A DNA stretch of 64,000 nucleotides from positions 248,001-312,000 of the forward strand of contig PLCM01000041.1 of the NCBI GenBank assembly GCA_003134765.1, written 5' to 3'. Positions 34,741-50,434 of this stretch are shown here, piece by piece. Below the pieces are notes generated by a model. That model was given only the letters and a program-made list of their open reading frames with translations, did no database searches and was not told where the DNA came from. Numbering within the stretch: position 1 is the stretch's first letter; every line of letters begins with the position of its first letter. This stretch comes from Spartobacteria bacterium (GTDB lineage: Bacteria; Verrucomicrobiota; Verrucomicrobiia; Chthoniobacterales; UBA10450). The position numbers and the translations under genes were made by a program.

Positions 34741-34839
34741 GGGCCAAGTGATTTCCGCGGCGCGTTCCTTCTCGTTTACGGTGCCGCGTGGCCTTGGTAT
34801 TGCCGATCGCAACCCAGCTTCCCCCATGATCGATTCAAT

Positions 34840-34927: not shown

Positions 34928-35737
34928 ATGAAGCGCGTATTCATCACTGGCGCGAGTGCCGGCATCGGGTTGGCAACGGCGAAGCTGCTGGCCGAACGGG
35001 GCGACGAAGTCTGGGGAACGTCGCGCGATATCGCGCGTGTTCCGCAACTTCCACGGCTCCACGCAGTGCGGCTCGACCTCAGCGAAAACATCTCATTAGG
35101 CGAAAGTTTCCAGCGAGCGCTCCGCGAAGCGGGCCATTTCGATGTCGTCATCAACAATGCCGGAAGCGGCCACTTTGGGCCGGGCGAACATCTTTCGGCT
35201 GAGGCAGTGCAGGCGCAATTTCAAACCGTCTTCTTCGCGCACGTCGAGCTTTGCCGTCTCGCTTTGGCTTCGATGCGGATCCACGGCAGCGGGCGGATCA
35301 TTAACGTCACGTCGCTTGCGTCGCGGTTACCCGTTCCATTCATGGCCGCCTATAACGCGGCGAAAGCCGCCATGGCTTCCTTCGTCATGTCGCTTCAGCT
35401 CGAACTGGCCGGATCGGACATTCGCGTGATCGATCTCCAGCCGGCGGACATTTGCACCAGCTTCAACGACGCGGTCGCTCGAACCGACAGCGGCGATCCG
35501 CGTTACACGGGACTCGTCGAACACGCCTGGAGAGTGGTGGAAAAAAACATGCAAGCCGCGCCGCAACCGGACCTGGTCGCGCGGGGCATCGCGAAATTGA
35601 TCGATGCGACTAATCCTCCCGCGCGCGTCACCATCGGCGGAACGTTTCAAGCAGCCGTCGCGCCGTTCATCCTTCGTTTCCTTCCGCAACGCACCCTCAT
35701 CTGGGGCTTGAAGAAATATTACCAGCTGCCGAATTGA
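34928..35737 (+). CDS. short-chain dehydrogenase; candidate 3-ketosphinganine reductase
   Basis: A 269-residue SDR. NAD(P)-binding TGASAGIGLA at residues 8-17, NNAG near residue 78, catalytic Ser in VTSLASR, and the YNAAK pair (Tyr and Lys). RBS-like aggaagg sits directly before the ATG at 34928. The C-terminal tail (LPQRTLIWGLKKYYQL) looks like those of ketosphinganine/acyl-chain SDRs, but I cannot fix the substrate. Its stop overlaps the start of the cytidylyltransferase-like gene by 4 bases (TTGA), so the two are co-translated. Context suggests a step in making the sphingoid base. That step is inference. Confidence 0.55.
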   Translation: MKRVFITGASAGIGLATAKLLAERGDEVWGTSRDIARVPQLPRLHAVRLDLSENISLGESFQRALREAGHFDVVINNAGSGHFGPGEHLSAEAVQAQFQTVFFAHVELCRLALASMRIHGSGRIINVTSLASRLPVPFMAAYNAAKAAMASFVMSLQLELAGSDIRVIDLQPADICTSFNDAVARTDSGDPRYTGLVEHAWRVVEKNMQAAPQPDLVARGIAKLIDATNPPARVTIGGTFQAAVAPFILRFLPQRTLIWGLKKYYQLPN

Positions 35738-36453
35738 AAATAAGCGACGCGGTGATTTTGATGGCGGGGACCGGTTCGCGCCTGCGCGGCTCGACGGAGA
35801 CGATCGCAAAGCCGCTTATTCCGATCGCCGACCGGCCGCTGATCTCCTACGCGATTGACGCATTCGATGAAGCCGGGGTGGAGACGATCCACGCTGTCGT
35901 CGGCCCCAACGGAGAGGAACTGGCGGCGGCGGTCGCGCTGCTTCTGCCTCCCCATATGCGATTCCACGCGATTCCGAACCCGAACTGGCAAAAACAAAAC
36001 GGCGTCTCGCTTCTCGCGGCGGCGGGCCGCGTTCGGTCGCCCTTCTGTCTCGCGATGGGCGACCATCTCTTCGAACGGTCGATCCTGGATCAACTGCTTG
36101 CCCAGGCCGATCCCACGCGACTCAATCTCGCCATCGACCGGAAGATCGCTTCGATCTTCGATCTGGAAGACGCGATGAAAATTCGCACGGAAGGGAACCG
36201 GATCGTCGGCATCGGGAAGAACCTTAATAACTTCAACGCGATCGACACCGGCATCTTCATTTGTCCGGAAATCATCTTCGAATATTTGCGGCGCGTTTTG
36301 AAAGACGGCGACTGCAGCCTGGCGGACAGCGTTCGGCTGATGGCTGAGGAAGGGAATGCGCTCGCGATTGATATCGGCGTTGCCTGGTGGCAGGACGTGG
36401 ATACGCCGGAAATGCTGGCGCGCGCCGAACAGGAAGCAGCTCGGCTTCTGTAG
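35734..36453 (+). CDS. nucleotidyltransferase resembling inositol-1-phosphate cytidylyltransferase
   Basis: A 239-residue protein with an NTP-transferase fold. The start is TTG at 35734. Nucleotide-binding AGTGSRLRGS lies at 11-20, the KPLIP motif at 26-30, MGDH at 108-111 and WWQDVDTPEMLARA near the C-terminus. MGDH, the pattern DLEDAMKIRTEGNRIVGIGK and the final DVDT match what I recall of archaeal and bacterial inositol-1-phosphate cytidylyltransferases. That enzyme makes CDP-inositol from CTP and inositol-1-phosphate. It is coupled to the SDR, and ends in a palindromic repeat that supplies the TAG stop. Another sugar-phosphate nucleotidyltransferase is the main alternative. Confidence 0.68.
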   Translation: MKISDAVILMAGTGSRLRGSTETIAKPLIPIADRPLISYAIDAFDEAGVETIHAVVGPNGEELAAAVALLLPPHMRFHAIPNPNWQKQNGVSLLAAAGRVRSPFCLAMGDHLFERSILDQLLAQADPTRLNLAIDRKIASIFDLEDAMKIRTEGNRIVGIGKNLNNFNAIDTGIFICPEIIFEYLRRVLKDGDCSLADSVRLMAEEGNALAIDIGVAWWQDVDTPEMLARAEQEAARLL

Positions 36454-36528
36454 CCGCCGCCCTGTGGGCGGCGTGTTGGCGAGCGATAATGGACTCAACC
36501 GGCGCTTCGCACAGCGAAGCGGCTACAG
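36448..36528. repeat. family B palindromic repeat between convergent genes
   Basis: Ends ctgtagccgccgccctgtgg and cacagcgaagcggctacag. Each end carries a TAG: the left one ends the cytidylyltransferase-like gene and the right one (read on the minus strand) ends the CDP-alcohol transferase. It may act as a bidirectional terminator. Confidence 0.88.
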
Positions 36529-37743
36529 GGCCGAGCGTGCCCGCCACGCGAGCGCCAGACTCACCGCCGTCACCAAAAGCAGCAGATGTAAAATGAGGGC
36601 CGGCAACCCCACCCCCGCCAGGAAAACAAAGAAGAGCACCGCGACATCGCGTTTCGTAATCTGCATGAGTAGGAAGGCGAATTTCTCTCCGAACATGAGG
36701 AGGCCCGAACGCTCGACCAGTTCGCGATGGCGTGGATAAAGGGCAGGACCTAACGAATCCAATTTTGCCGCGGACGCGGGTACTGCTTTCCGAGTCGCGA
36801 GATAAGTTTCATTCACTACGATCAGGCCGCCCGCGGTGATTCCTTCAAGCAGATAGAACCAACCGGAACCACCGTGAAAATGCGCCTGTCGAGAAAGCCC
36901 AAATCCGAGACCGACGACGAGAAGGACGTTGCTCGCGACGTCGAAGAGATCGTCGAGCTGCCGTCCGCGCTCGCTTTCCATGAATTTCGCGCGGGCGATC
37001 TCCCCATCACAGCCGTCCAAGACGCTGAATACCTGAAACAGGATGAGGCCGAGGAAAAACGACCAGTAGGTTCCGTGACTCAAGACGAGCGCCGCCACGA
37101 TCGGAATGGGAAAAATCAGCCAGGTCCACGCGTTCGGCGTGGTGGTGAATCTCAGCAGGAGCCGTGTGATCGCGCGGGAAATCGGACGATTCAGATATCG
37201 CGACACGAAACCATCCTGGGATTTGCGGCTGCCACGCAGGAACTTCGTTTCGATGCGATCGATCGCGTTCCCATCGGTGATGAACTCCCACGCTCCGTCG
37301 ACTGAACGTGGTAGTGACTCCGTTAGCCGACGATAAATCTCCCAGCTTTCCTTATCACTCGGAGGGACTTGCTTCCGCACGTCCCCAGAATCAGAAAGTG
37401 AGTCCCCAAGAGAAATGGAACGCGCGGAAGCGCCTCCCTCCGAGAGTAAACGGCCAACGGCTCTTCGATAGAGGAAGAGTCGTGTGCTCAGAATAAGATC
37501 ATAAGGTTGGCCATCGAGATCGGTCGAGAAAGCGACCTTGGTGAGTCGTGGATTGTCCGGGATCCAGCGCTGGGATTGATCGAGAACGGGGTGCCAGAAA
37601 ATGCCGACGAGTACGGGCGCGGTCTCCTTGTTCTCAATGGCGAATTCGTCGATGGAGAGTGCGATCCGTTCCAATTGGCGCAATCCGGCCACCAGCCAAT
37701 CCGCCGATTCGTCGGCCAGAACCAGGACGCGCCGCCGGTTCAT
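36523..37743 (-). CDS. CDP-alcohol phosphotransferase with extended N-terminus (DIPPS-like)
   Basis: A 406-residue protein. The CDP-alcohol phosphotransferase signature is complete: D243-x2-D246-G-x2-A-R251, G260, D264 and D268 (the sequence VLDGCDGEIAR and GRQLDDLFDVA). Several membrane helices surround it. The linker SQDGFVSRYLNRPISR directly before the helices matches my recollection of di-myo-inositol-phosphate phosphate synthases and related fused enzymes. The N-terminal 170 residues look like a degraded nucleotidyltransferase domain or unrelated. It would join CDP-inositol (or another CDP-alcohol) to an acceptor alcohol in the membrane. It overlaps the GNAT gene by 4 bases (ATGA at 37740-37743). 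Confidence 0.75.
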   Translation of the reverse strand: MNRRRVLVLADESADWLVAGLRQLERIALSIDEFAIENKETAPVLVGIFWHPVLDQSQRWIPDNPRLTKVAFSTDLDGQPYDLILSTRLFLYRRAVGRLLSEGGASARSISLGDSLSDSGDVRKQVPPSDKESWEIYRRLTESLPRSVDGAWEFITDGNAIDRIETKFLRGSRKSQDGFVSRYLNRPISRAITRLLLRFTTTPNAWTWLIFPIPIVAALVLSHGTYWSFFLGLILFQVFSVLDGCDGEIARAKFMESERGRQLDDLFDVASNVLLVVGLGFGLSRQAHFHGGSGWFYLLEGITAGGLIVVNETYLATRKAVPASAAKLDSLGPALYPRHRELVERSGLLMFGEKFAFLLMQITKRDVAVLFFVFLAGVGLPALILHLLLLVTAVSLALAWRARSAL

Positions 37744-38891
37744 TGCACCGACGCAAGAAGGCGCCGATAAATCCGGTAGGTCTTATATTTTTCGGCGCCG
37801 ATGGCTTCGAGGAAGCGATTCATCATGTAGTTATTTTCCAGAATCAGGCTGCATTCGCCGATGAATCCGCGTTTGAGCATGGCTTCCTCGATAATGTGCA
37901 ATACCAGCATTTCGGCGATCCCGTGCCGGCGATACTTCGGAACCACGCCGAGCGCGACGAGCCGGACCGTTTTCAACCGGCTCTTGTGGTAGAGCAATTT
38001 CGCGAGCCCGATCGGCAAACCAAAGGTCGTCAGGCGCCCGTTGATTTTCTTGAACGCCGCATTGATGTCCGGCACGCAGAGAATGAACCCGACCGGTTCA
38101 CCCTCGATCTCCGCCAGCCAGATCAGTTCCGACAGAACGATCGGCTTCAGCTCCTTGGTCATGAAGTCGAATTCCTTTTCGGTGAAGGCGACGAAGCCCC
38201 AATTATTCCGCCACGCTTGATTGTAGATGTCGCGGATCAGCCTGCCTTCCGCGTTAATGTTGCGCAGATTTGCGGTGCGAAAAGTTACGTCGCCGCGCCG
38301 TTTTTTCAGCGCTCCGGCGAGACGGCGGAGGCGCTCGGCCGCATCCGCCGGATTCGCAAACCACCAGGCGTAAAGGTCCATCGCTTTCTCAAAGCCCCAT
38401 CGCTCGATCAGCCCGCCGTAATACGGTGGATTATGCGAGGTAAGGAGCATGGGCGGGAATTGAAACCCGTCGATGAGCAGACCACAGACATAGTTCGTCG
38501 AATAATCGATCGGCCCCATGATCTCGTCACGCCCGAGCCCGCGCAGCCACCCGGCGGCCGCATCGAACAGGGCGTTCGCCACTTCCTGATCGTCGACCGA
38601 TTCAAACATCCCGAAGCAACCGACGTTCGACCCGTGAAGAGCGTTGTAGTTGGGATCATCGCTCGCCATGATGCGCCCGACGATTTCGCCGGCCCGCCGC
38701 GCCAGAAAAAGCTCTGCCTTTCCGTGCTCATAAAACGGATGCTTTTCTCGATCGAGGAATTCCTTGCGCTCCAGCAGGAGCGGCGGCACCCAGGCGGGAT
38801 CGTTCTCGTAAATGCGCCAGGGGAATTTGATGAAAGCATCGCGCTCGGCGTGCGAAGCAACCCGGATAGTTTCAATTTGAGCCACGGCCAT
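37740..38891 (-). CDS. large GNAT-family N-acyltransferase; candidate bacterial ceramide synthase
   Basis: A 383-residue protein. The ATG at 38889-38891 (MAVAQIETIRV) is chosen because the preceding ATG at 38945 has no sign of use. The acetyl/acyl-CoA motif A of GNAT lies in LGVVPKYRRHGIAEML, followed by NYMMNRFLEAIGAEKY. The N-terminal half (FPWRIYENDPAWVPPLL and GRDEIMGPIDYSTNY) is a pattern seen in large GNAT proteins of about 380 residues, but I cannot assign substrate. As I recall, the bacterial ceramide synthase described in Caulobacter is an unrelated-to-eukaryote acyltransferase of this general class. Direct coupling to a CDP-alcohol phosphotransferase and the nearby SPT support a lipid role, by inference. 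Confidence 0.5.
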   Translation of the reverse strand: MAVAQIETIRVASHAERDAFIKFPWRIYENDPAWVPPLLLERKEFLDREKHPFYEHGKAELFLARRAGEIVGRIMASDDPNYNALHGSNVGCFGMFESVDDQEVANALFDAAAGWLRGLGRDEIMGPIDYSTNYVCGLLIDGFQFPPMLLTSHNPPYYGGLIERWGFEKAMDLYAWWFANPADAAERLRRLAGALKKRRGDVTFRTANLRNINAEGRLIRDIYNQAWRNNWGFVAFTEKEFDFMTKELKPIVLSELIWLAEIEGEPVGFILCVPDINAAFKKINGRLTTFGLPIGLAKLLYHKSRLKTVRLVALGVVPKYRRHGIAEMLVLHIIEEAMLKRGFIGECSLILENNYMMNRFLEAIGAEKYKTYRIYRRLLASVQ

Positions 38892-39025
38892 AACCTTGCC
38901 TTGAGCGAAGCCTGTCTGCCAGTCCCAAGGAACGGAGATTTTCAAGCGCAGACCCCAAAACGGCGGTCAAAACCGTCCTTCCCTGACTTGCAGCCACGAA
39001 GAAAGGGAGTACAACCAACGGCCTT

Positions 39026-39901
39026 GTGACGCGCCGCGACAGCCAGCCAGTTCCCGCGCACGGTCTCTCCTCCAAAGCTATCGAAATCGAGGAGCTGACT
39101 GACGTTTACTTTTTCCGCCCGGCCGGCTTGCTTATCGCTCACGGCGCCCGGGTCGTCGGAACGACGCCGATCGGTCTCACGATGCTGGGGGCTCTGGTGG
39201 GAATTGCCGGCGGTGCCCTGCTCTACGACCAGCGCCTTGGGCTGTTCGGATTCGCGCTTCTCATTCTCCACGGAATCATCGACTCCGCGGATGGCCAACT
39301 CGCGCGCATGACCGGGCAGGTCACCGAGTTAGGTCGCGTGCTCGACGGCGTCGGCGGCTACGTCACCCACATCGCCATCTACGTCGGGATCACCGCCGGA
39401 CTTCTTCATCGCGGCGCGCCCCGCACGATTCTCCTTTGGGCGGGGTTAGCCGCGCTGGCGAATGTTGCCCAGGCCCAGATGTACGAATTTTACCGGCATC
39501 ATTACAAGACCATCGTAACAAAGAGATCCCTGCCGCTCGACAACCCGGACGGGATAAACTCGGCCTGGATCGCCTGGCTCTATCGTGGGTATCTCAATAT
39601 TCAGCGAATGAGCAACGGCCACCATGTCGAGGTGGAATCGGCTCTTGCGTCGCGTTTGATTGAGGGCGTCGTGCGGGAGGGAGATGTGACTTTGTACCGG
39701 CAGAGTTTTTACGGACCCGTGCGGGGTTGGAATTTGCTCGGCGACAACACCCGGTTCTACGCCATCGGCCTCCTCACTCTGTTCCATCGAATCGACCTTT
39801 TTTTCGCTTTCATCCTGCTGCCAATGAATCTGGCGCTGGTCGGGCTCTGGATCTGGCAACGGAGTGCCGATCGCCGATTTCTCGCTAGGGTGTTTACCTA
39901 A
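39026..39901 (+). CDS. CDP-alcohol phosphotransferase family protein lacking the last catalytic Asp
   Basis: A 291-residue membrane protein starting with GTG at 39026, in the divergent gap opposite the GNAT gene. The motif reads D86-SA-D89-G90-QL-A93-R94, then G103, D107, but the fourth Asp of the family (D4, the catalytic base) is Gly111 (LDGVGG). Several hydrophobic segments are visible. It should act on CDP-activated alcohol and a lipid or polyol acceptor if active; the missing Asp leaves activity open. It is the first gene of a compact six-gene operon with HAD phosphatase, nucleotidyltransferase, ATP-grasp, aminotransferase and dehydrogenase genes. Confidence 0.7.
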   Translation: MTRRDSQPVPAHGLSSKAIEIEELTDVYFFRPAGLLIAHGARVVGTTPIGLTMLGALVGIAGGALLYDQRLGLFGFALLILHGIIDSADGQLARMTGQVTELGRVLDGVGGYVTHIAIYVGITAGLLHRGAPRTILLWAGLAALANVAQAQMYEFYRHHYKTIVTKRSLPLDNPDGINSAWIAWLYRGYLNIQRMSNGHHVEVESALASRLIEGVVREGDVTLYRQSFYGPVRGWNLLGDNTRFYAIGLLTLFHRIDLFFAFILLPMNLALVGLWIWQRSADRRFLARVFT

Positions 39902-39912
39902 TTTTCCTTCGC

Positions 39913-40614
39913 ATGGTTCGCACGATCCTTTTTGACATGGGCGGCACTCTCGATGGCGACGGTCTTCATTGGCTGGATCGGTTCGTCGCCTTCTACCGAA
40001 GTTTCGGCGTCGACCTCCCGCGTGAATCGATTCGCCTCGCTTTCGACGAAGCCGAACGCCGCGCGGCCACGGATGAACTCATCGCGTCCGCGGATTTCCG
40101 GCAGATGATCGAACGCCATGTGAAATGGCAGCTTGAACAACTGGGCTTGGAAAACCGCGGACTCGAGCAAGATCTCGTCGGGGCTTTTATTCCGCCAGTC
40201 CGCAAGGCGGCGGCCGCCAACATGATCTTACTCGCCGACCTGGTGGCCCGCGGTCTCGAGCTTGGCGTTGTCTCGAACGGTTGCGGGAACGTTGAGAAAT
40301 TGTGCGCCGATTTCGGTTACACTCCCTTTCTTTCCGTGATCGTGGACTCGCGCTGCGTCGGACTTTTCAAACCAGACCCCGCAATCTTCCTTCATGCCGC
40401 CGGGAAGCTCGGCCGTGATCCGGGCGAAATCATGATGGTAGGAGATTCGTTCGATCGCGATGTCCGGCCGGCGAAACAAATCGGGATGAAGACCGCGTGG
40501 CTCCAGGGACTTGAATCGCGAACTTGTCCCGAACCTTCATTGGTCGATCTCCATCTTCGCCAGCTGGCAGACCTACCCGGCGCTTTGGCAGCTCTCTCAC
40601 CAGCGTTGGCATGA
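39913..40614 (+). CDS. HAD-superfamily hydrolase with altered motif I
   Basis: A 233-residue HAD protein. Motif I is DMGGTLDGDG, with the nucleophile Asp but Gly where the acid/base Asp of the DxD usually lies; motif II is VVSNG, motif III Lys is in GLFKPDP, and motif IV is GDSFDRDV. Most likely a phosphatase of a sugar or polyol phosphate, if active. It starts 11 bases after the CDP-alcohol transferase and overlaps the next gene by 4 bases (ATGA). Confidence 0.75.
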   Translation: MVRTILFDMGGTLDGDGLHWLDRFVAFYRSFGVDLPRESIRLAFDEAERRAATDELIASADFRQMIERHVKWQLEQLGLENRGLEQDLVGAFIPPVRKAAAANMILLADLVARGLELGVVSNGCGNVEKLCADFGYTPFLSVIVDSRCVGLFKPDPAIFLHAAGKLGRDPGEIMMVGDSFDRDVRPAKQIGMKTAWLQGLESRTCPEPSLVDLHLRQLADLPGALAALSPALA

Positions 40615-41348
40615 ACGCATCCGGGACATCGCTTCGGGCGGGGATTTTGGCGGCGGGGCGCGGCGAAAGATTGCGGAAGGGAACCTCCGATCTGAAACCG
40701 CTCGTCAAGGTAGCCGGAGAAACCTTGATCGAGCGGGTCTTGAACTCGATGTCAGAAGGCGGCGCAACGGAGGTGACCGTCATCATCAACGAAGATTCCC
40801 GGACGGTCCGGGATCATGTCGCGAAACGGGAATGGCCCTTCGCGTTGCGCTGGATCTTCGAAACGACCCCTACTTCGATGCACAGTTTTCTTCGGCTGGT
40901 CGAAACCCTGGCCGCCGATGGAAACGTCGGGCCATTTTTGCTTTCCACCGTCGATACCGTGGCGGGCGCGCAAACCTACGCTCGCTTTTTCGCTGAAGCG
41001 CGACAGCTCGAACAGGCGACCGTGACCCTGGCGCTCACTTCGCCGGGAGATGACGAGAAACCGCTGCTCGTGCGAACGGCTTCGAACGATTCGCGCGTCG
41101 TCGCGATCGGTGAAGCCGCGGCCCCATCGGACTACGCCACGGCCGGCATCTACGCCGTGCGCCCGATCATTCTTCGCGAAGCCGAAGCCGCGCGGCGCGA
41201 TGGAATCGATACCCTGCGAAAGTTTCTCGGGCGTCTGCTCGATCGCGGCTATCACCTGGCCGGAATTCCGATTTCACGGTCGATCGATGTCGATCATCCC
41301 AAGGATATTGAAACCGCCGAAATATTTCTCCGGGGCGCGCAAAGATGA
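40611..41348 (+). CDS. nucleotidyltransferase (NTP-sugar/polyol type)
   Basis: A 245-residue protein with the NTP-transferase start GILAAGRGERLR and the KPLV motif, and a C-terminal DVDHPKDIETA similar to the end of the other cytidylyltransferase-like gene. I chose the ATG at 40611, which overlaps the HAD stop. It is a second, divergent nucleotidyltransferase that could activate a polyol or sugar phosphate for the CDP-alcohol transferase at 39026. Whether it uses CTP cannot be told. Confidence 0.68.
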   Translation: MNASGTSLRAGILAAGRGERLRKGTSDLKPLVKVAGETLIERVLNSMSEGGATEVTVIINEDSRTVRDHVAKREWPFALRWIFETTPTSMHSFLRLVETLAADGNVGPFLLSTVDTVAGAQTYARFFAEARQLEQATVTLALTSPGDDEKPLLVRTASNDSRVVAIGEAAAPSDYATAGIYAVRPIILREAEAARRDGIDTLRKFLGRLLDRGYHLAGIPISRSIDVDHPKDIETAEIFLRGAQR

Positions 41349-42157
41349 AACGCCTTCTTGGATTGTATCGCGAAAAGCAGTATTCGCCCGGCCGTCACCA
41401 GTCGAACGACGCGCTGCTTCTCGACCAGATCGCGCACCGGCTCCGGGAACGGGAATTCGCCGTCGACCTCATGACCTTGGAGGAAGCAAACGGAGTGCGG
41501 TCGGAGGCCGCCCTGGTTTTCTCGATGTGCCAGGGGAGATCGGCCCTTGAAAGTCTGGCCCAGTGGGAGCGCGACGGCGTGAAAATCATCAACAGCCCGC
41601 TCGCCGCGCTCAATACCCATCGCGATCGTTTGCCGTCGTTAATGGTCCAGGAGCGGATCCCGTTTCCTCAGACGCACTTGGTGAACACGAACGAAAGCGC
41701 GGATCCGCATTCGCTCGATCTCAACGGCGGCATCTGGCTGAAACGCGGCAATGTCCACGCCTCCGTTACGGCCGATGTGCAATGGATCGATTCGCGCGAG
41801 CGCCTGGAAACCGGGCTGGCGGATTTTTCGGGGCGCGGCATCGACCTGGCCGCATTGCAGGCGCATCGGGCGGGCGACGAGATAAAATTCTACGGCGTGG
41901 CCGGTCGCGCGTTCTTTCACTGGTTTTATGCCGGAAACCCGCGCAAGTATCCTTTCGATTCTTCGGAACTGCAGAATTTGGGCAATCAAGCGGCCGCCGC
42001 GGCCGGGCTCGACATTTTTGGCGGCGACATCATCGTATCGTCCTCGGGAGAATTGACCTTGATCGATCTAAATGATTGGCCATCGTTCGCCCCCTGCCGG
42101 GAACGCGCGTCTTATGTCATCGCCGATTTCATTACAAAACGTGTCCATGCCAGCTAA
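41345..42157 (+). CDS. ATP-grasp-like protein
   Basis: A 270-residue protein. The C-terminal half has the layout of an ATP-grasp ligase: a lysine in IWLKRGNVHAS, the KFYGVAGRAFFHWF strand and LTLIDLNDWPSFAPCRE with the metal-binding Asp/Asn (D-x-N). The N-terminal half is a Rossmann-like lead-in. Such enzymes join a carboxylate to an amine or thiol with ATP. It could add an amino acid to an amine made by the aminotransferase next to it. Overlaps both neighbours. Confidence 0.6.
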   Translation: MKRLLGLYREKQYSPGRHQSNDALLLDQIAHRLREREFAVDLMTLEEANGVRSEAALVFSMCQGRSALESLAQWERDGVKIINSPLAALNTHRDRLPSLMVQERIPFPQTHLVNTNESADPHSLDLNGGIWLKRGNVHASVTADVQWIDSRERLETGLADFSGRGIDLAALQAHRAGDEIKFYGVAGRAFFHWFYAGNPRKYPFDSSELQNLGNQAAAAAGLDIFGGDIIVSSSGELTLIDLNDWPSFAPCRERASYVIADFITKRVHAS

Positions 42158-43463: not shown

Positions 43464-43466
43464 ACC

Positions 43467-44441
43467 GTGCTGCGCGGCGCGATAATCGGTTTTGGCGCGG
43501 TCGCGGAAAACGGGCACTCACTGGCCTACGCGGGGTCGCCCGAAGCGAAAATCGTGGCCGTGGTCGATCGGACGGAAACACGCCGGAAAGCCGCCGAAAA
43601 ATCTCTGCCGTCCATTGCGACATTCGCCACCATCGAAGAATTATCGGACGGCCCCGAGATCGACTTTGTGGATATCTGCACGCCCCCGTCCCTGCATGGC
43701 GCGCCAATGCTCCAGGCCCTTGCCTGCGGCTGGAATGTCCTGTGCGAAAAGCCACTTCTCCTCAATCTCGACGAGCTCGACAAAGTGCGAACGCTGGCCC
43801 GGAAGTCGGGTCGAGCCGTCGTGCCCGTCCACAACTGGAAGTACGCACCGATCATCCGACGCGCGACCGATGCCCTGCGCTCGGGCGCTATTGGATCGCT
43901 GCGTGAAATCGAAATCGAAACGCTGCGCATCGAGGATTGCGTGGCCGCGGATCCGGCTCATCCGAATTGGCGACGCGACCCTTCCATTGCGGGCGGCGGT
44001 GTCCTGATGGATCACGGCTGGCACTCCGTCTATCTCGCACGCCATTGGTTCGGAGAAGATCCGGTCGCAGTGGAAGCGGCGCTGCATCGGCCAACGCCGG
44101 GCGGAATTGAGGACGAAGCAACGTTAACTCTGCATTTTCCAAATGGTCGCGCGAAAATCTTCCTGACCTGGCGGGCCGATCGGCGGCAAAACACGATCCG
44201 ACTGAGCGGAGACCACGGAACAATCGCGATCGACGACGATACGCTCAGGATCGGCGACGAAGAAATCCGATTCGAGAGCGCATTATCCGCCGGGTCGCAT
44301 CACGCCGACTGGTTTGCCGCCATGTTGCCAGATGTGATCGCGAAGTTTCGCTCGCCGGAAACCTCGCGAGAATCTTTTGAAGAAGCCGCGCTCTGTCTTT
44401 CAGTGATTCGATGTGCCTACGAGCTGCCGGTCCGCCTCTAA
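43467..44441 (+). CDS. Gfo/Idh/MocA-family dehydrogenase
   Basis: A 324-residue oxidoreductase with GTG start 3 bases after the aminotransferase. The NAD-binding IIGFGAVAENG, the CEKPL motif and the DHGWHSVYLARHWFG catalytic stretch are present. This family includes inositol and sugar dehydrogenases and could supply a keto-polyol to the aminotransferase. The last 42 bases overlap, in the opposite direction, the 3' end of the fatty-acid hydroxylase gene. Confidence 0.82.
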   Translation: MLRGAIIGFGAVAENGHSLAYAGSPEAKIVAVVDRTETRRKAAEKSLPSIATFATIEELSDGPEIDFVDICTPPSLHGAPMLQALACGWNVLCEKPLLLNLDELDKVRTLARKSGRAVVPVHNWKYAPIIRRATDALRSGAIGSLREIEIETLRIEDCVAADPAHPNWRRDPSIAGGGVLMDHGWHSVYLARHWFGEDPVAVEAALHRPTPGGIEDEATLTLHFPNGRAKIFLTWRADRRQNTIRLSGDHGTIAIDDDTLRIGDEEIRFESALSAGSHHADWFAAMLPDVIAKFRSPETSRESFEEAALCLSVIRCAYELPVRL

Positions 44442-45116
44442 CGAACCGGGCTCCGCCGCCGGGCGCGACGCCCTGGTGCCGAAAACGTAATCCCAAAGCG
44501 GCGAGCTGACACCATAGCCGACGTGGTCGTCGTCGTAGTGATGCCGCATGTGATACTTCTTCAGCCAGAGCCACACCCCACGTTTCATCGAAAAATGGTG
44601 CGTCGCGTAGTGCAGCATGTCGTAGAAAAGATAGCCGCCGAGGAATCCGGCAAACGCCGCCGGCGCGACGCGGCCGAACAGGAGCACAAACACTCCGTAA
44701 AAGAAAAGCGCGAGCGGAATACTCACTATCGGCGGCATCACGAGGCGGCTGGCGTCTTTCGGATAATCGTGGTGCACGCCATGAAGGAGAAAGTGAAACT
44801 GTTTTCCCAGGCGGCTGGTCGGTTGATAATGGAAAACCCAGCGGTGCATCGTGTATTCGACCAGGCTCCAGATAAGATTTCCGAGGAGGAAAAGGCCGGC
44901 GATCACGGTGATCGCCATGGCTCGCTGCCGCGCCGCGAGATCGAGCATGAAGCCAACCACCGGCAGGTAAATCACCAGGGGCGTGAGGGGGTGAACATGG
45001 GAGAAAAATTCCAGGAACCGGCTCTCAAACATGCGGACCGATTCGTTTTTGTTCGAGACGTAACGCTGCCCCATACGCTTTACGATGCTCAGTTCTCCCG
45101 CCGCATCAATGCGCAT
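44400..45116 (-). CDS. fatty-acid 2-hydroxylase-like (FA2H/Scs7 type) membrane enzyme
   Basis: A protein of 238 residues from the ATG at 45114-45116, which overlaps the end of the SPT-like gene; an ATG at 45074 is an alternative. The di-iron/zinc histidine clusters of the FA2H/sterol-desaturase family are all here: H91 and H96 in HRWVFH, H108, H112, H115 and H116 in HFLLHGVHH, H169, H173 and H174 in HYATHH, and H189, H192 and H193 in HMRHH. The sequence around them (LWLKKYHMRHHYDD, GVSSPLWDYVFGT) matches eukaryotic FA2H closely by recollection. There is no cytochrome b5 domain. It would hydroxylate the C2 of the acyl chain of a ceramide or fatty acid in the membrane. Confidence 0.75.
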   Translation of the reverse strand: MRIDAAGELSIVKRMGQRYVSNKNESVRMFESRFLEFFSHVHPLTPLVIYLPVVGFMLDLAARQRAMAITVIAGLFLLGNLIWSLVEYTMHRWVFHYQPTSRLGKQFHFLLHGVHHDYPKDASRLVMPPIVSIPLALFFYGVFVLLFGRVAPAAFAGFLGGYLFYDMLHYATHHFSMKRGVWLWLKKYHMRHHYDDDHVGYGVSSPLWDYVFGTRASRPAAEPGSLEADRQLVGTSNH

Positions 45117-46419
45117 GCTCCAGCTGGGGGAGCTGCGCCGGCAGGAGCGTGTCTGAAAGAATATTGAGCGCCTCATCGAGATCGGCGCGGGTGTGGTTCG
45201 CGGTCACGCAGGCGCGGAAACAGATTTTGTCCTGCGGGACGGCCGGATAATCGACAGGCGCGACCCAGAGCCCGCGCTGGCGCAATTCATGGCCGAGCTG
45301 ATACAAACGCTCGCGATCCCCGATCACGATCGGCATGATGTAAGTCGTCGAGTCACCGGTATCGATGCCGAGCGAATTGAGCTGGGCGTGAAAATATTCA
45401 GCGTTTTCCCAGAGCCGGCTCCGCAATTCCGGCCGGGTCGTTCCGAGTTCGAGCGCCTTCAGGATGCCAGCGACCACCACGGGCGGCAGCGCGCAGGAAT
45501 AAACATAGGGATGTGAATAGAACCGCAGGTAATCGAGCGTTTCTCGTGAACCCGCGACGAAGCCACCCATCGCCCCGAACGCCTTCGAGAAGGTCCCGTA
45601 AAGAATCTGCACCCTCCTTTCCACGCCGAAATGCTCCACCGCCCCGCGGCCATTTTCGCCGCACGCGAGCATCGAATGCGCTTCGTCGACGAAGACCTGC
45701 GCCTCATGCGCGTCCGCCACATCCATCACCTCGTTCAAATGGCCGAAATCGCCGTCCATGGAATAAATACCTTCGACGATCACCAACTTTCGTTTTCCTT
45801 TGTGGCGCGAGAGAGCGGCGTCGAGCGACTCCGCATCGTTATGATCGAACCGCTCGCAGCGGGTCCGCGCCAGGACCGCTCCGTCACGCAGACTCAGGTG
45901 TGAACGGTTGTCCATGACGGCGACGTCGGACTTTCGCAACAGTCCTGAGATCGCTCCAAGCGCGCCACCAAACCCGCTGTTAAAAAGCATCGCATCCTCG
46001 TAACCGAGAAATTCCGCCATCCGTTTTTCCAGCTGGCGGTGGAGATCGCTCATGCCGGACAGAACGGGCGAGCCGCACGCGCCCAGACCGTGGGTGGCCA
46101 ACGCTTCGCGGGCGGCCGCGATCACCTCGGGGTGATTCGCCAGGCCGAGATAATTGTAGGAAGAAAAATTGATTACCGGAAGTGATTTGCCGCGGTAGTT
46201 CAAAGTCGTCCGCGCCTCAGCCGGACCGAGCAGGACCGGCTCATACAACTCGACGGCCCTCTCGATGGCGCGATGCCATTTCGTAAACGCCGGCGGCGGC
46301 TTCAACGGATCTTTGCTGTCACCCACCAAAAAGTCGCCCAGGCTAAATTTGTTCGGATCGCTTTCGACCGTGGGATTGGCCCCATTTTCCGGCGCTGAAG
46401 AATCTGGATTCAGTGGCAT
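45106..46419 (-). CDS. spt: serine palmitoyltransferase-like alpha-oxoamine synthase
   Basis: A 437-residue PLP enzyme. Key residues: His174 in NRSHLSLRDG (ring-stacking), Asp245 and His248 in FVDEAHS, and PLP Lys279 in GTFSKAFGAMGG. The F-S-K-A-F sequence is closer to serine palmitoyltransferase LCB2 (FTKSF) than to the T-L-G-K-A-F-G of 8-amino-7-oxononanoate synthase. An N-terminal arm of about 65 residues precedes the fold. The enzyme would condense serine with an acyl-CoA or acyl-ACP to make a ketosphinganine. Its 3' end overlaps the hydroxylase gene; the GT9 gene lies 199 bases upstream on the same strand. It could also serve another alpha-oxoamine pathway. Confidence 0.72.
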   Translation of the reverse strand: MPLNPDSSAPENGANPTVESDPNKFSLGDFLVGDSKDPLKPPPAFTKWHRAIERAVELYEPVLLGPAEARTTLNYRGKSLPVINFSSYNYLGLANHPEVIAAAREALATHGLGACGSPVLSGMSDLHRQLEKRMAEFLGYEDAMLFNSGFGGALGAISGLLRKSDVAVMDNRSHLSLRDGAVLARTRCERFDHNDAESLDAALSRHKGKRKLVIVEGIYSMDGDFGHLNEVMDVADAHEAQVFVDEAHSMLACGENGRGAVEHFGVERRVQILYGTFSKAFGAMGGFVAGSRETLDYLRFYSHPYVYSCALPPVVVAGILKALELGTTRPELRSRLWENAEYFHAQLNSLGIDTGDSTTYIMPIVIGDRERLYQLGHELRQRGLWVAPVDYPAVPQDKICFRACVTANHTRADLDEALNILSDTLLPAQLPQLEHAH

Positions 46420-46618
46420 ATCGGGAAGGTGCGCCGCTCGGACGCCTGACGATTATTCGTAACGTAGCGAATGAGGCGCCACGCAGCCGCGTTCGCCAGG
46501 ATGGTCATTCGATTGAGCAGGCCGACAAAATAAGGGACCTGACGCAAAACGTCCATAAATAAATCGACCCGCCTGTGGGCCCGGGGTGTTCCAGACCTCA
46601 GGCGCGGGCGCCGGCAGG

Positions 46619-47860
46619 TTAGAGATAGCTTTGGGTGCCGTTGATCGTGCGATAGGTCACTCCGCCTTCCATGACCCGCAACGAAGTTTCCAGCACCTGG
46701 GAGGGGGCGAGAGTTTGCAGACAAAGGTTGTTCTGGCAACGCGAACGCTTGTTGTTCAGGAAACTGATGCACGGACTGCAGTGAAAAAACGTGTAAAGAA
46801 TCACGCAATTGCCGAGCGGTCCGTAGACGAAGGGCGAGTCGGTGCTAAAAAGCGCGACGATCGGGGTCTGAGTGAGTGAGGCAAAGTGAACCGGGCCGTT
46901 ATCGTTGCTGATAAGTAACTGGGAAAAGTTGATGAGCTCGACGAGCTCGGTCAGCGACCGGGTGCGTCCGCAGAAATTGCGGCAGCGCTTGTCGTTTACC
47001 GCCTCGGCAATTGCTTCGCAGGTCGCCGCATTTTCAGGAACCCCAATCAACAAAACGCGAATCTCAGCTGGCCGGGCGAGCAATTCGCTCACGACCCGGA
47101 TGTAGTGGCCGACCGGATAATTTCTGATCGCGAGATTGGGGCCCACGTCCGGATTTACTAGAACGAGCGGACCCTCCTGCCAATCGGGAAACACTTCCCT
47201 GACGCCGGTTTTCATCTGCGACGCCAGCCCGGCATCGGATTCGAAGACCGGCACGGAGATCTCCCCACTTTCTACGGGCCCCTTGTAGTTGGGATAATGC
47301 TGCTTGTCGGCCAGCGCCACCTTGCATAACGCGAGAAGATTTTTCGCGATGTGCGCGTTCTGGTTGAAGGCGCACGGAACGTCGATGAGATCGCCGCGGT
47401 AGAGTCCCTCATATTCATAACGATAAAAACCCGCGGTTTGCCGTGCGCCGACCAGGAATGAAGTGATAGCCGATAGCCGGGTGAACTTGTCGAAATCAAC
47501 CACGAGGTCGAACCGCATTCGGCGCAAAGATCCGAGGAGGGCGATCAGGGAGGAAAGAAAGCGCACCATACTTTTCGCTTCGACCCCGTGGATGTTTTCC
47601 TCGGACACCAATCCAAGAAGCTTCCAGGACTCCTTGCTTCCACTCGCGCAAAGAACGTGAAGCTCTGCTTCAGGGCACCGGCTTGTAACATATTTTAATG
47701 CCGAATAGGCCATGATGGCCGCCCCCATTTCGAAGAATTCGATAAACAGGATGCGCCGGGGCCCGGACGGTCTTCGTCTCCGCTTGAAAAGCGAGAGCAG
47801 ACCGCAGACGACCTGCCCCGGATATCGATCGATGAAGCGCAGAAGTCCTGATTCCTTCAC
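46619..47860 (-). CDS. glycosyltransferase family 9-like (heptosyltransferase type)
   Basis: A 413-residue GT-B protein with the GT9 pattern: a start strand RRILFIEFFEMGAAIMAYSA, VNPDVGPNLAIRNYP, RNFCGRTRSLTELVELI and LLISNDNGPVHFASLTQTP (the donor-binding end). GT9 enzymes add heptose or related sugars to lipopolysaccharide cores. Near the C-terminus an unusual Cys-rich strip (FHCSPCISF, RCQNNLCLQ) is seen. It may glycosylate a sphingolipid or LPS; not known. Divergent from the GT39-like gene. Confidence 0.75.
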   Translation of the reverse strand: MKESGLLRFIDRYPGQVVCGLLSLFKRRRRPSGPRRILFIEFFEMGAAIMAYSALKYVTSRCPEAELHVLCASGSKESWKLLGLVSEENIHGVEAKSMVRFLSSLIALLGSLRRMRFDLVVDFDKFTRLSAITSFLVGARQTAGFYRYEYEGLYRGDLIDVPCAFNQNAHIAKNLLALCKVALADKQHYPNYKGPVESGEISVPVFESDAGLASQMKTGVREVFPDWQEGPLVLVNPDVGPNLAIRNYPVGHYIRVVSELLARPAEIRVLLIGVPENAATCEAIAEAVNDKRCRNFCGRTRSLTELVELINFSQLLISNDNGPVHFASLTQTPIVALFSTDSPFVYGPLGNCVILYTFFHCSPCISFLNNKRSRCQNNLCLQTLAPSQVLETSLRVMEGGVTYRTINGTQSYL

Positions 47861-47944
47861 GGAGGAGGAGTATGGGTCGGCCCGGAAAAGATGCCAGCGG
47901 GCATTGCTCTTGCCGCTGATGCACTCCCTCCCTAAGAAAAGGAG

Positions 47945-49444
47945 ATGCTAACCCGAGCGTTTCGATTCGCCGCGCTCGGGATCGTTTTGCTCACGGTCGC
48001 GATCCGCCTTCCTTCGCTGCAACATCCACAGGCGATCGACGATGAGGAGCCCTATTCCGTCGTCGCCAATGAGATCGTGGATGGAGGCCGGCCCTACATC
48101 GACGCCGTGGATCGCAAGCCGCCCCTTCTCTTCTGGACGTATGCGGCCGTCTTCAAGATCGCGGGAAAATATAACTGGATGGCGCTGCACGCCGTTGCGC
48201 TCCTGTGGACGCTCGGAACGATGGCCAGCCTTTATGCGATCGGCAGGCAGTTGTTCAATCGCGCCACCGGGTTGGTGGCGGCGCTTCTTTACAGCGCATT
48301 CCAATCCTGGGCAGTCGCGAAGAATCTCGCTTTCAACGGCGAGATGTTAATGAATCTGCCCCTCGTCTGGGCCTGGAGCATCGCGTTTGGGCCGAGCTCC
48401 TCGAAATTGCGACCCGAGCTTTTCGCTGCCGGAGTCCTGCTTTGCGCAGGATTCCTTCTCAAACAACCGGCCGCGATCGCGGCGGTGCCGCTTGGAATTT
48501 ATCTCCTTCTTCCGAGCTATCGAACGAGTCGTGGGATCACCAAATCAATCTCCTTCGTTCAGGCCACAATGCTCACGGCCGGATTTTTCGCCGCGCTCGG
48601 CCTGGTGGCAATCGTCCTCGCCCGCCAGGGCATCTTGCGCGACGCGTTCTATTGGACCTTCACCAGCCACGACATTCCACACGTGTTCTGGGAGACCGGC
48701 ATTCTTCACACCCTGGCTTTCATCGGCGCCTGTCTGCCGCTGGTGGTAGGTGCCGGGATGGCGTTCCGAGACCGAAATGGTTTGTGGGCAACGAGGAAGC
48801 CTGAACGCGCGGCGCTTTTCGGATTACTGGTCGCCTCTGTAATTGGGGCGGCGGCGGGAGCGCGATTTTATCCTCACTACTATATTCAGTTGGTCCCACC
48901 CCTCGCCCTCCTCGCGGCGCCGCATTACGCCCAACTCTGGGGCAACAGGACCGAGCCGCGCGTCTGGTTCTTTCGACCGGCGGTCATGGCCGGATGGCTG
49001 ACGGTCACCGTGATCGCATTCTCGTTCGCGCATTGGAAATTATTGGCTGGAAATCGCGAGTCTTTGGAGACGGCGCGCCATCTTTTGGAGCACTCCGCGC
49101 CTAACGACAGGATCTTCGTCTGGGGCCGCAGCGCCGCGGGAGTCTATCTCCAGGCGCAGCGCCGTCCCGCGAGCCGCTACATCCTTACATTTCCGCTTAC
49201 GGGATTAGTTTTCGGTGCCGATCTCCCGGGCGTGGACACGCGCAATCGCATCATGCCGGGCGCGTGGGATAAACTCGAAGAAGATTTCCGGCAACACCCG
49301 CCCAGGTTCATTGTGGATCTCACGGCCGGTTCCGATCCGCAATATCCGGTGCGCGATTTTCCGGTGTTATCCAAGCTCCTGGCGGAACGCTACGAACCAG
49401 TGGCGCATACCAGGGAGGGTCTGGTTTTTCAAATGCGACCGTAA
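47945..49444 (+). CDS. GT39/ArnT-like membrane glycosyltransferase
   Basis: A 499-residue multi-pass membrane protein. An early acidic pair in QAIDDEEPYSVVANEIVDGG sits in the first outer loop, as in GT-C enzymes of the GT39/83 (PMT, ArnT) family; many hydrophobic segments follow. It would transfer a sugar from a lipid-linked donor to a lipid or protein. Its stop codon (49442-49444) touches the stop of the convergent desaturase gene with no gap. Confidence 0.65.
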   Translation: MLTRAFRFAALGIVLLTVAIRLPSLQHPQAIDDEEPYSVVANEIVDGGRPYIDAVDRKPPLLFWTYAAVFKIAGKYNWMALHAVALLWTLGTMASLYAIGRQLFNRATGLVAALLYSAFQSWAVAKNLAFNGEMLMNLPLVWAWSIAFGPSSSKLRPELFAAGVLLCAGFLLKQPAAIAAVPLGIYLLLPSYRTSRGITKSISFVQATMLTAGFFAALGLVAIVLARQGILRDAFYWTFTSHDIPHVFWETGILHTLAFIGACLPLVVGAGMAFRDRNGLWATRKPERAALFGLLVASVIGAAAGARFYPHYYIQLVPPLALLAAPHYAQLWGNRTEPRVWFFRPAVMAGWLTVTVIAFSFAHWKLLAGNRESLETARHLLEHSAPNDRIFVWGRSAAGVYLQAQRRPASRYILTFPLTGLVFGADLPGVDTRNRIMPGAWDKLEEDFRQHPPRFIVDLTAGSDPQYPVRDFPVLSKLLAERYEPVAHTREGLVFQMRP

Positions 49445-50434
49445 TCAGACGAGACCGAGATGCTGAGGCCGCGAGCCTATCGGATGAAGATCGTTCGACC
49501 GCTCGACGCGCGAAAACAAGGTGTAGCGCGGGTCGAACAAAAACTGCATCAGCAACCGGCTCCAGGAAGAATGCGACCGCAATGAATCGTAAAATTCCGG
49601 GGCCAGCGCCCGTAATTTCGGCAGATTATTCCAGGCGATCGACGGGAAATCGTGGTGTTCGTTATGGTAACCCACGTTGAGCGCAACCCGGTTGATCGGC
49701 CCGTAGTAGCTGAACGTTTCCTGGTCCGGATCGAGAGTGTAGTGCTCCTGCACCCAGCGCGCTCCAACGGGGTGAAGGCCGATGGAAAAGAAAAAGGAAC
49801 ACCCCAGATACCAGAGGCCGGCCCAGCCGGAGAAGTAGAAAACCGCAAGATTGAAGACAACGGCGCAGAGGAGATTAGCGACGGTCCAGGCGTTCCAAAG
49901 CGTGATCGCTTTCAAACGCGGCGGCCGCGTCATCTGAAAAACGGGAAACAAGAACAGCCAGAAAGCCTTGCTGTACCATTTGTTGCTGATCAGCCGCGCC
50001 TCCCATTGGCTGGGGATGTCGGCGTCCGATTCGTAGTCTCCTTGATGGGCGTGGTGTTTGAGGTGGTAAACGCCAAAACCGATTGCGCCGGGAAAGAGGT
50101 TCGGCAGATCGGCGACGATGGCGACAAGCTTGTTCAGGATCTTACTCCGAAAGACGAGATTGTGGGTGGCATCGTGGATAATGACGTAGGTGCAATGGTT
50201 GGCGAAAGCTCCGAACCCATAGGCAACGATCAAGCTCACCCACCAGCCCTGGGGACCGAGCCGGGAAATGCCATAAGCGATCGCAACTTGAACCACCAGG
50301 ACCAGCGCGGCCACGAGCGCGGTATAGGGATTCCGGCGCATCAGGGAGCGGACTTCCGGGTGCGCCTTCAGGATCGCGCGCGTTCGCTGGGGATGCGGTT
50401 GTTCGAATTCGGCGTGGTAAAAAGTCTCTTGCAT
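49445..50434 (-). CDS. sphingolipid delta-4 desaturase-like (DEGS/dihydroceramide desaturase)
   Basis: A 329-residue membrane desaturase, the length of animal DEGS1. I chose the ATG at 50432-50434 (MQETFYHAEFEQPH). The three histidine boxes are H87-DAT-H91, H124-LK-H127-H128 and H257-NE-H260-H261. The surrounding sequence is strikingly like DEGS by recollection: an N-terminal HPEVRSLM, then ETFSYYGPINRVALNVGYHN, EHHDFP, LPKLRALAPEFYDSL and SHSSW. DEGS puts a 4,5-trans double bond into dihydroceramide, using electrons from a cytochrome b5 system and oxygen. Bacterial membrane fatty-acid desaturases generally lack this C-terminal block. It supports a desaturated sphingoid base here, together with the SPT gene 3 kb away. 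Confidence 0.78.
   Translation of the reverse strand: MQETFYHAEFEQPHPQRTRAILKAHPEVRSLMRRNPYTALVAALVLVVQVAIAYGISRLGPQGWWVSLIVAYGFGAFANHCTYVIIHDATHNLVFRSKILNKLVAIVADLPNLFPGAIGFGVYHLKHHAHQGDYESDADIPSQWEARLISNKWYSKAFWLFLFPVFQMTRPPRLKAITLWNAWTVANLLCAVVFNLAVFYFSGWAGLWYLGCSFFFSIGLHPVGARWVQEHYTLDPDQETFSYYGPINRVALNVGYHNEHHDFPSIAWNNLPKLRALAPEFYDSLRSHSSWSRLLMQFLFDPRYTLFSRVERSNDLHPIGSRPQHLGLV

Follow-up and report, generated by a model that had tools for sequence, protein, structure and literature searches.

Sphingolipids with an inositol head group are best known from fungi and plants and have so far been shown in few bacteria. The subject here is a gene cluster at positions 34928-50434 of a 64,000-nucleotide stretch (hereafter the window) from a Spartobacteria bacterium (assembly GCA_003134765.1, contig PLCM01000041.1; host genome 4.05 Mb, 93.9% complete). 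Together with a nearby inositol-3-phosphate synthase gene (ino1), it probably encodes a pathway for an inositol-type phosphosphingolipid with optional 2-hydroxyl and delta-4 tailoring, which is perhaps exported. One described counterpart is the phosphatidylinositol-phosphate (PIP) synthase/phosphoinositol-dihydroceramide (PI-DHC) synthase route of Bacteroides thetaiotaomicron (BT_1522-1526). The window has in common with it an inositol-3-phosphate synthase (MIPS) and, as predicted here, inositol phosphoceramide as the class of product. Unlike that route, it has no PAP2-family protein in Pfam scans of the interval's genes, and CTP would activate the head group, not diacylglycerol.

A second counterpart is the 'alternative' inositol-lipid cluster of Bacteroidetes, in which a nucleotidyltransferase (NT), a CDP-alcohol phosphotransferase and a HAD hydrolase lie beside MIPS; gene sets in Prevotella nigrescens, Bacteroides finegoldii and Parabacteroides distasonis fit this published description (PMC9246714). 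In the Heaver 2022 model, a proposed but unproven route by way of CDP-inositol to PI-DHC, the phosphotransferase acts on diacylglycerol and the HAD protein accounts for the ceramide step (PMC9246714). Four genes of the window, encoding a CDP-alcohol phosphotransferase (PT2), a HAD hydrolase, a nucleotidyltransferase (NT2) and an ATP-grasp-like protein, are homologous to this set (28-41%). An earlier note on this DNA knew of no CDP-inositol route joined to DEGS/FA2H homologues; as an idea, a CDP-inositol route to ceramide is not new, having already been proposed for Prevotella and B. vulgatus (Heaver 2022, PMC9246714). Unlike the 'alternative' cluster, the window adds genes for a serine palmitoyltransferase (SPT)-like protein, a GNAT acyltransferase, a DEGS-type desaturase, an FA2H-like hydroxylase, a nucleotidyltransferase (NT1) resembling CTP:inositol-1-phosphate cytidylyltransferase (IPCT), a DIPPS-like CDP-alcohol phosphotransferase (PT1), a class III aminotransferase (AT3) and a Gfo/Idh/MocA oxidoreductase (Gfo/Idh). 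Its ino1 is of another type and does not adjoin the set, lying about 14.5 kb from PT2, and HAD occurs only in neighbourhoods that bear a particular cassette, described below.

The IPCT and DIPPS enzymes of hyperthermophiles (2xme, 4mnd and AF2299, 4o6m) are the nearest solved relatives of NT1 and PT1; in the window, unlike in those organisms, the functions are split over two genes that stand within a sphingolipid neighbourhood. The Caulobacter CPG2 pathway (Spt, bCerS, CerR, CpgA-D) has an epimerase-type reductase, CerR, unlike the KDSR-like short-chain dehydrogenase/reductase (SDR) of the window. Both systems have a ceramide core that depends on SPT and an acyltransferase, and both have a cytidylyltransferase and a proposed CDP-alcohol phosphotransferase for the head group (PMC12275187, PMC11324152). 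Caulobacter uses CTP to activate glycerate for its head group (PMC12275187), and its pathway differs in the phosphoglycerate head group and in a ceramide kinase. The inositol sphingolipids of fungi and plants (DEGS, FA2H/Scs7, IPC synthase) involve homologous tailoring enzymes and a similar predicted product; unlike those systems, the window has a different ceramide synthase and head-group transferase and a hydroxylase that lacks the cytochrome b5 domain.

Four elements of this picture are already in print: inositol phosphoceramide in bacteria, a CDP-activated head group for ceramide, the proposal of a CDP-inositol route, and Spt-like genes in Verrucomicrobiota. The last come from a study that named this phylum as potential sphingolipid producers because of such genes and counts 22 of its metagenome-assembled genomes (MAGs) with Spt-like proteins (PMC11334938). 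Among the matches listed for open-licence PMC articles, no title or abstract opening concerned a bacterial DEGS homologue or a Verrucomicrobia inositol sphingolipid. Nor did the literature, to the extent of these openings, offer the combination found here: a fixed gene order in a soil family, DEGS/Scs7-type tailoring, a double head-group module and a conserved efflux set.

Genes were called with Pfam profiles, with 206 NCBIfam models that have curated cut-offs, and by sequence comparison with solved structures (PDB). Each gene named in the earlier note proved to be an open frame where the note had placed it, and the interval also holds PT2, HAD, NT2, the ATP-grasp-like gene, AT3 and Gfo/Idh, which its list lacked. 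Gene content, homology and order could be observed directly in 20 neighbourhoods, all from other genomes of the window's family, some of whose stretches stop at contig ends. SPT, GNAT and PT2 were found in all 20, NT1 in 18, SDR in 17, the desaturase in 14, PT1 in 13 and FA2H in 12; in L052 the GNAT match reaches only 25% and lies on the opposite strand. Relatives preserve, wholly or mostly, the order SDR-NT1-PT1-GNAT-PT2-SPT-FA2H-desaturase, one exception being L046, where SPT is at the far end.

Linkage was counted in 117 relatives, 73 of them in the window's family, from positions compiled by hand. PT1 copies in five of 46 genomes (G043, G050, G054, G055, G069) and weak extra rows were excluded, as were ino1 in the 14 of 69 genomes with only 53-58% copies (six of them outside the family), all SPT copies of about 36-41% identity, and a gene from G045 related to PT1 (84% identical, NT1 not found there). 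Such PT1-like substitutes were counted in 13 of 44 genomes, with the copy near the cluster or on the NT1 contig. After these exclusions, all counted genes are confined to the window's family. Among genomes that carry both members of a pair, SPT and PT2 share a contig in 56/56 (median 1.3 kb between starts), SPT and the desaturase in 35/41, NT1 and PT1 or its substitute in 50/53, NT1 and SPT in 42/55 (41 within 12 kb), and NT1 and ino1 in 18/44, all within 24 kb. Because of these counts the adjacency cannot be put down to chance, and the co-occurrence and shared gene order that the note had proposed to look for in related genomes are both borne out.

The phylum at large was surveyed with an even sample of 387 genomes, family members drawn included. 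Non-cassette-type PT2 was detected in three genomes and the desaturase in four, a rarity that makes the supercluster look like a trait of one family within the phylum. The PT2 query was of the non-cassette type and missed the window's own PT2 at the threshold used, so cassette-type copies are undercounted.

Substrates, order of steps, head group and export are predicted from sequence. The ceramide core would begin with condensation of an acyl thioester and serine by the SPT-like alpha-oxoamine synthase (45106-46419, minus strand), a candidate judged by Pfam, NCBIfam, phmmer, a motif and its conserved neighbours. Reduction of the ketone by the SDR and N-acylation by the GNAT protein, in either order, would then give dihydroceramide. 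The SDR (34928-35737, plus strand; adh_short, 133 bits) is a candidate 3-ketosphinganine reductase, for which the NCBIfam KdsR model ranks second of 206 at 173.8 bits, short of its cut-off of 400. The GNAT protein (37740-38945, likely start about 38891, minus strand; PF00583, Acetyltransf_1) is likely to be a bacterial ceramide synthase. It has no PDB match at E<=0.1 and matched no curated bCerS model, and genes related to it have SPT-like neighbours in Verrucomicrobia and Alphaproteobacteria, on a Saprospiraceae contig and on a Rubrobacter plasmid. The three core genes are the weaker assignments of the locus. The GNAT protein is also about 38-41% identical to proteins annotated as YghO in E. 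coli and Pseudomonas records, a resemblance which suggests that YghO-type proteins may have a similar acyltransferase function.

For the head group, Ino1 would supply inositol phosphate and NT1 would convert it to CDP-inositol. NT1 (35734-36453, plus strand), a candidate CTP:inositol-1-phosphate cytidylyltransferase, finds its best solved structure in A. fulgidus IPCT (2xme, E 8.8e-20) and retains the motifs NGxSLL, MGDH, IGKxL, DTG and DVDT; its best NCBIfam model is IPCT/DIPPS, at 113.8 of 580 bits. PT1 (36523-37743, minus strand) is closest among solved structures to AF2299 (4o6m, 1.9e-18) and to the DIPPS half of IPCT-DIPPS (4mnd, 7.6e-13), and its signature D1xxD2GxxAR...GxxxD3xxxD4 is complete (DGCDGEIARAKFMESERGRQLDDLFD). 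The IPCT-like and DIPPS-like genes of the earlier note thus have the relatives it named, catalysis being a prediction for both. The AlphaFold model of PT1 is poor (predicted local distance difference test, pLDDT, 56.5), and its fold gave no identity for the N-terminal domain. The window's ino1 (23436-24539, minus strand; PF01658, Inos-1-P_synth, 127.4 bits) scores 429.4 bits with TIGR03450 (mycothiol_INO1), under the cut-off of 638, and its orthologues in the family are mostly 80-95% identical. The note had pointed to ino1 as lying nearby, and it occupies the same neighbourhood in relatives: in the 18 double carriers with both genes on one contig, it starts 6.8-23.8 kb from NT1. In L047 it directly adjoins GNAT.

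NT1 and PT1 resemble the enzymes, IPCT and DIPPS, with which hyperthermophiles make a solute, and this would also suit two unrelated functions that happen to adjoin, a di-myo-inositol phosphate solute pathway and a sphingolipid pathway. Given the interleaved gene order maintained across the family, the lipid-cluster type of PT2 and the union of MIPS with SPT, desaturase and FA2H genes in an unrelated phylum, this is very improbable.

PT1 is replaced in several genera by a related gene (e.g. L041:10736-12034), sometimes accompanied by a radical SAM gene, which rules out an essential role for PT1 itself. The substitutes are CDP-alcohol phosphotransferases with a weak nucleotidyltransferase-like N-terminal part; none matched in the window's genome at E<=1e-20. 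A PT1-like gene also occurs as a further copy near the ABC gene in L137, L047, L140 and L141.

Transfer of phosphoinositol to ceramide would fall to a CDP-alcohol phosphotransferase, to the PT2 type in most relatives and/or to PT1. The window's PT2 (39026-39901, plus strand; PF01066) is homologous to that of the Bacteroidetes inositol-lipid-type cluster. Its AlphaFold model (pLDDT 79.5) has a fold most like AF2299 and PgsA1, at E about 1.5e-3, with none at or below 1e-3. In 14 of the 15 neighbourhoods that lack the cassette, PT2 lies between SPT and GNAT, which is why the PT2 type is favoured as the transferase in most relatives. The other phosphotransferase may attach an additional phospho-cyclitol, by analogy with the tandem phosphoglycerates of Caulobacter CPG2.

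The Bacteroidetes model raises the alternative that CDP-inositol is first transferred to diacylglycerol and that another enzyme, the HAD protein as proposed, then passes phosphoinositol to ceramide. Its appeal is that it was put forward for a homologous cluster (PMC9246714). No HAD match (tblastn, E<=1e-8) was found within the stretches compared in the 15 non-cassette neighbourhoods, and together with the position of PT2 in 14 of them this favours direct transfer to ceramide on genomic grounds; an order through diacylglycerol is improbable here.

In the window's genus, PT2 is joined by the HAD-NT2-ATP-grasp-AT3-Gfo/Idh cassette, all on the plus strand. PT2 and the cassette are present in seven of eight sampled genus members (G000, G001, G002, G003, G004, G006, G007); the cassette was found neither in G005 nor in the other family neighbourhoods fetched. 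The HAD hydrolase (39913-40614; PF00702), NT2 (40611-41348, likely start 40611; NTP_transf_3) and the ATP-grasp-like protein (41345-42157; R2K_3 at E 0.012, under its cut-off) show 28-35%, 32-35% and 29-34% identity, respectively, to the HAD, the NT and an unnamed gene of three Bacteroidetes records. AT3 (42072-43463) matches Aminotran_3 with 327.2 bits, and the Gfo/Idh protein (43467-44441; GFO_IDH_MocA) reaches 74.9 of 355 with the iolG model. A tblastn search of plasmid records with the ATP-grasp-like gene matched four Bacteroidetes records, of which three were compared. In P. nigrescens and B. finegoldii the gene accompanies an NDP-sugar synthase, a CDP-alcohol phosphotransferase, a HAD protein and an inositol-3-phosphate synthase; P. 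distasonis has the same set without MIPS on the stretch, so MIPS adjoins in two of three records. The Bacteroidetes phosphotransferases are 30-41% identical to two non-cassette PT2 proteins and are closer to these than to the window's PT2, which matches that of B. finegoldii at 31% over 288 residues and the other two over shorter lengths. The window's ino1 is only 23-25% alike to Bacteroidetes MIPS over about 200 residues. In another family of the phylum, one short contig (L157, G244) holds an NT, an ATP-grasp-like protein, a CDP-alcohol phosphotransferase, a HAD protein and MIPS, 31-54% identical to the Bacteroidetes set.

The cassette would add or replace a head group, perhaps with an aminated cyclitol. 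Its content gives some room to a reading in which the ceramide pathway is the same and NT1, NT2 or both activate another polyol or cyclitol phosphate, such as aminated inositol or glycerate, to yield some other phosphosphingolipid, anionic or zwitterionic. The IPCT motifs are missing from NT2, which has other motifs in common with the Bacteroidetes NT, AT3 and Gfo/Idh are present, and CpgD of Caulobacter activates phosphoglycerate (PMC12275187). A head group of another kind is nonetheless unlikely: the nearest solved relative of NT1 is IPCT, ino1 is in the same neighbourhood, and the Bacteroidetes relatives of NT2 stand beside MIPS in two of the three records.

The tailoring enzymes of the proposed inositol phosphosphingolipid pathway, together with NT1, are the strongest single assignments from sequence. 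The hydroxylase (44400-45074, open frame to 45176, minus strand; PF04116), which would place a 2-hydroxyl on the acyl chain where its gene is present, is an FA2H/Scs7-like candidate ceramide fatty-acid 2-hydroxylase. Within E<=1 the PDB gave only two matches, both to yeast Scs7 (best 4zr1, 4.2e-32), with the histidines aligned, in agreement with the FA2H-like identity first given to it. An N-terminal cytochrome b5 domain is usual in FA2H/Scs7 proteins and absent in some members; the Pfam scan of this 258-residue protein detected PF04116 and no such domain. The DEGS-type sphingolipid desaturase (49445-50434, likely start, open frame to 50491, minus strand; PF00487, FA_desaturase) would introduce a delta-4 double bond where its gene is present. 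The Lipid_DES domain PF08557, that of delta-4 desaturases, scores 39.4 bits with a cut-off of 23, and all 15 sequences compared share the histidines of the boxes HDATH, HLKHH and HNEHH, so the DEGS label holds as well. It had no useful PDB sequence match and no relative among PLSDB plasmids. Both genes are optional in the family, FA2H being found in fewer of the 20 neighbourhoods than the desaturase and both in fewer than SPT, so that of the 2-hydroxy and delta-4 tailoring proposed in the note the homologues are present but are not constant across the family.

Beyond the family, the same kinds of ceramide genes were observed to cluster independently. An alignment scan of the genome collection confirmed at least 586 relatives of the desaturase, which rules out that DEGS homologues are unique to the window's lineage. 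Of the 80 loci examined, 42 carry an SPT-like gene within the stretch; 22 of them are of the type seen in the family (Acidobacteria being the label of one record), 19 are proteobacterial and one is from Saprospiraceae. In the proteobacterial loci (Methylocapsa, Methylocella, Beijerinckia and others), an SPT-like gene accompanies the desaturase in 19/19, and SPT, GNAT and desaturase genes occur together in 14/19. The Saprospiraceae locus (L120, 6814-15350) encodes a PIP synthase (354.5, cut-off 350), a desaturase, a hydroxylase, a PAP2 protein, an SPT (681.4, cut-off 640), a GNAT protein, an epimerase-type reductase and MIPS. The PAP2 protein resembles phosphoinositol-dihydroceramide synthase (IPC-synthase-like) at 276.5, under the cut-off of 480. 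Genes of the B. thetaiotaomicron-type route are thus found with desaturase and hydroxylase genes whose products are each 51% identical to those of the window. In L118 and L135, too, the desaturase is flanked by a PIP synthase gene. The tie of DEGS and FA2H homologues to inositol-sphingolipid genes therefore also exists beyond the family, there with a different head-group chemistry. A genome from a further family of the phylum (G234) encodes a desaturase, an epimerase-type reductase, a GNAT protein and a hydroxylase together (L158:9113-12700), and the 20 kb stretch gave no SPT-like match.

Several points weigh against the proposed pathway, and those for the ceramide core concern the SPT-like protein. 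Its top NCBIfam model is BioF (343.8 bits, cut-off 426), SPT models giving 318.3 (cut-offs 640 and 500), so that it falls short of any curated SPT cut-off. In a tree that did not include BioF, it stands apart from KBL and is not firmly joined to the SPT of L120. In comparison with solved structures by phmmer, SPT (3a2b) ranks first at 259.2 bits, with KBL a few bits lower at 254.7. In a comparison made without a BioF reference, its motif around the pyridoxal-phosphate lysine, GTFSKAFGAMGG, is near that of the L120 SPT, GTFSKSLASIGG, and unlike that of three KBL proteins, GTLGKALGGASGG. In family neighbourhoods and desaturase loci, the gene is linked to the acyltransferase and other ceramide genes. 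The linkage favours an SPT, whereas in the NCBIfam models BioF leads and all scores fall under their cut-offs; a best match to KBL or BioF, which the note had named as a refutation, is half the case. That the gene is the cell's KBL is ruled out, as the same genome has a separate KBL gene (659.7 bits, cut-off 493). This paralogue lies about 16 kb past the window's end (L136:948-2162, G000:C1).

With regard to the head group, the fourth Asp of the PT2 signature is replaced by Gly (LDGVGG) in the window, G004, G006 and G007. It is retained in G001, G002 and G003, which have the same cassette, and in 35/35 non-cassette sequences (a genome could be counted twice, under different locus ids); the Bacteroidetes phosphotransferases, three in number, have the Asp one residue later. 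In one PIP synthase, a change of D4 to Asn nearly abolishes activity (PMC4634129). The window's PT2 may use another base or another substrate or may be inactive; if it is inactive, PT1 would carry out the transfer. With two nucleotidyltransferases and two CDP-alcohol phosphotransferases, and with PT1 replaced in some genera, several donor and acceptor assignments fit, and IPCT followed by DIPPS onto ceramide is one of them. The CDP-inositol route of the earlier note thus keeps its IPCT and DIPPS homologues and its ino1 but loses a unique assignment of enzymes, between NT1 and NT2 and between PT1 and PT2. The presence of NT1 and that of ino1 are unassociated within the family (p 0.52), which may be due to fragmented, incomplete MAGs.

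Further points concern tailoring. In 38/80 desaturase loci there is no SPT-like gene on the stretch. Six of these lie on verrucomicrobial contigs with an end nearby; the others, from Bacteroidota and Ignavibacteria, weaken the claim that the desaturase invariably acts with an SPT encoded beside it. Two genomes that are each 97% complete, G003 and G031, yielded no desaturase, and their neighbourhoods have no FA2H match either. DEGS-family C4-hydroxylases exist in eukaryotes, and it is possible, though rather doubtful, that the DEGS-type protein hydroxylates the base (at C4) or the acyl chain, giving a phytoceramide-type or differently hydroxylated lipid. One DesA-family desaturase/hydroxylase, CC_0202 from Caulobacter, reportedly adds a hydroxyl to the amide-linked acyl chain of ceramide (PMC11324152), so a desaturase-family protein need not desaturate. 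PF08557 above its cut-off and the separate Scs7-like hydroxylase encoded next door argue for delta-4 desaturation instead.

The supercluster extends to genes that suggest export. Beside ino1, all on the plus strand, are two TolC-type outer-membrane efflux proteins (24736-26109 and 26106-27470; both OEP PF02321), the first of which adjoins ino1 in relatives, an HlyD-type membrane-fusion protein (27471-28637; HlyD_D23) and a MacB/FtsX-type ABC permease (28634-29875; FtsX, MacB_PCD). The second TolC-type protein, the HlyD-type protein and the permease are kept in relatives. An ABC ATPase follows (31200-31880, start approximate, plus strand; ABC_tran), found in 11/20 neighbourhoods. The run ino1-TolC-TolC-HlyD-MacB-ABC also lies near sphingolipid genes in L047, L140 and L141. 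L040 and L139 have the efflux part, with ino1 just beyond the stretch, and L138 runs ino1-TolC-TolC up to its end, its ABC gene lying on the opposite side. The conservation of this run beside ino1 is the basis for proposing that the lipid is perhaps exported; according to one account, a flippase or transporter for sphingolipids had yet to be identified in Caulobacter (PMC11087976). Between ino1 and the SDR gene, the window also encodes a radical SAM protein, a Wzx/MATE-type flippase-like protein (31884-33455, minus strand; Polysacc_synt) with homologues (46-85%) in 15/20 neighbourhoods, and an optional GT4-type glycosyltransferase (33460-34890, minus strand; Glycos_transf_1) that adjoins SDR in L044, L051, L054 and L055. 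Two other glycosyltransferases lie between the SPT-like and desaturase genes: a GT9-type protein (46619-47860, minus strand; PF01075) whose place is not conserved, and a GT39-like (PMT_2) protein (47945-49444, plus strand; PF13231) found near the desaturase or SPT in L039, L050 and L053. Farther out are a PD-(D/E)XK nuclease protein and, after it, a UvrD-type helicase that bears a PD-(D/E)XK domain, a pair of the AddB/AddA kind (17100-23248, plus strand), and a tRNA-Glu (TTC) shortly past the desaturase (51354-51428, minus strand).

The broadest reading of this gene set is a fully tailored, eukaryote-like inositol sphingolipid, 2-hydroxylated, with a delta-4 bond and perhaps glycosylated, made by CDP-head-group chemistry, which eukaryotes do not use for inositol sphingolipid. 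In the window's genus it would be loaded with two phospho-cyclitols, phosphoinositol and a modified one that is perhaps aminated, and it would leave the cell by a dedicated TolC/HlyD/MacB system. Taken as a whole, so full a scheme is doubtful.

The clusters bear on how head groups are attached to bacterial ceramides, since they place the phosphotransferase type of an unproven Bacteroidetes route between SPT and the acyltransferase. The link of DEGS and FA2H homologues to inositol-lipid genes in two phyla bears on the origin of eukaryotic sphingolipid tailoring. One soil lipidome study describes sphingolipids as common in fungi and less so in bacteria, and reported 2-hydroxylated ceramides that were raised in dry soil and tied to a bacterium by correlation only (PMC9969633). 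The window's family includes Candidatus Udaeobacter MAGs, one of which (L076) has SPT, GNAT, PT2, desaturase and hydroxylase genes and an NT1 match interrupted by stops. This family is a concrete candidate for a bacterial source of such lipids.

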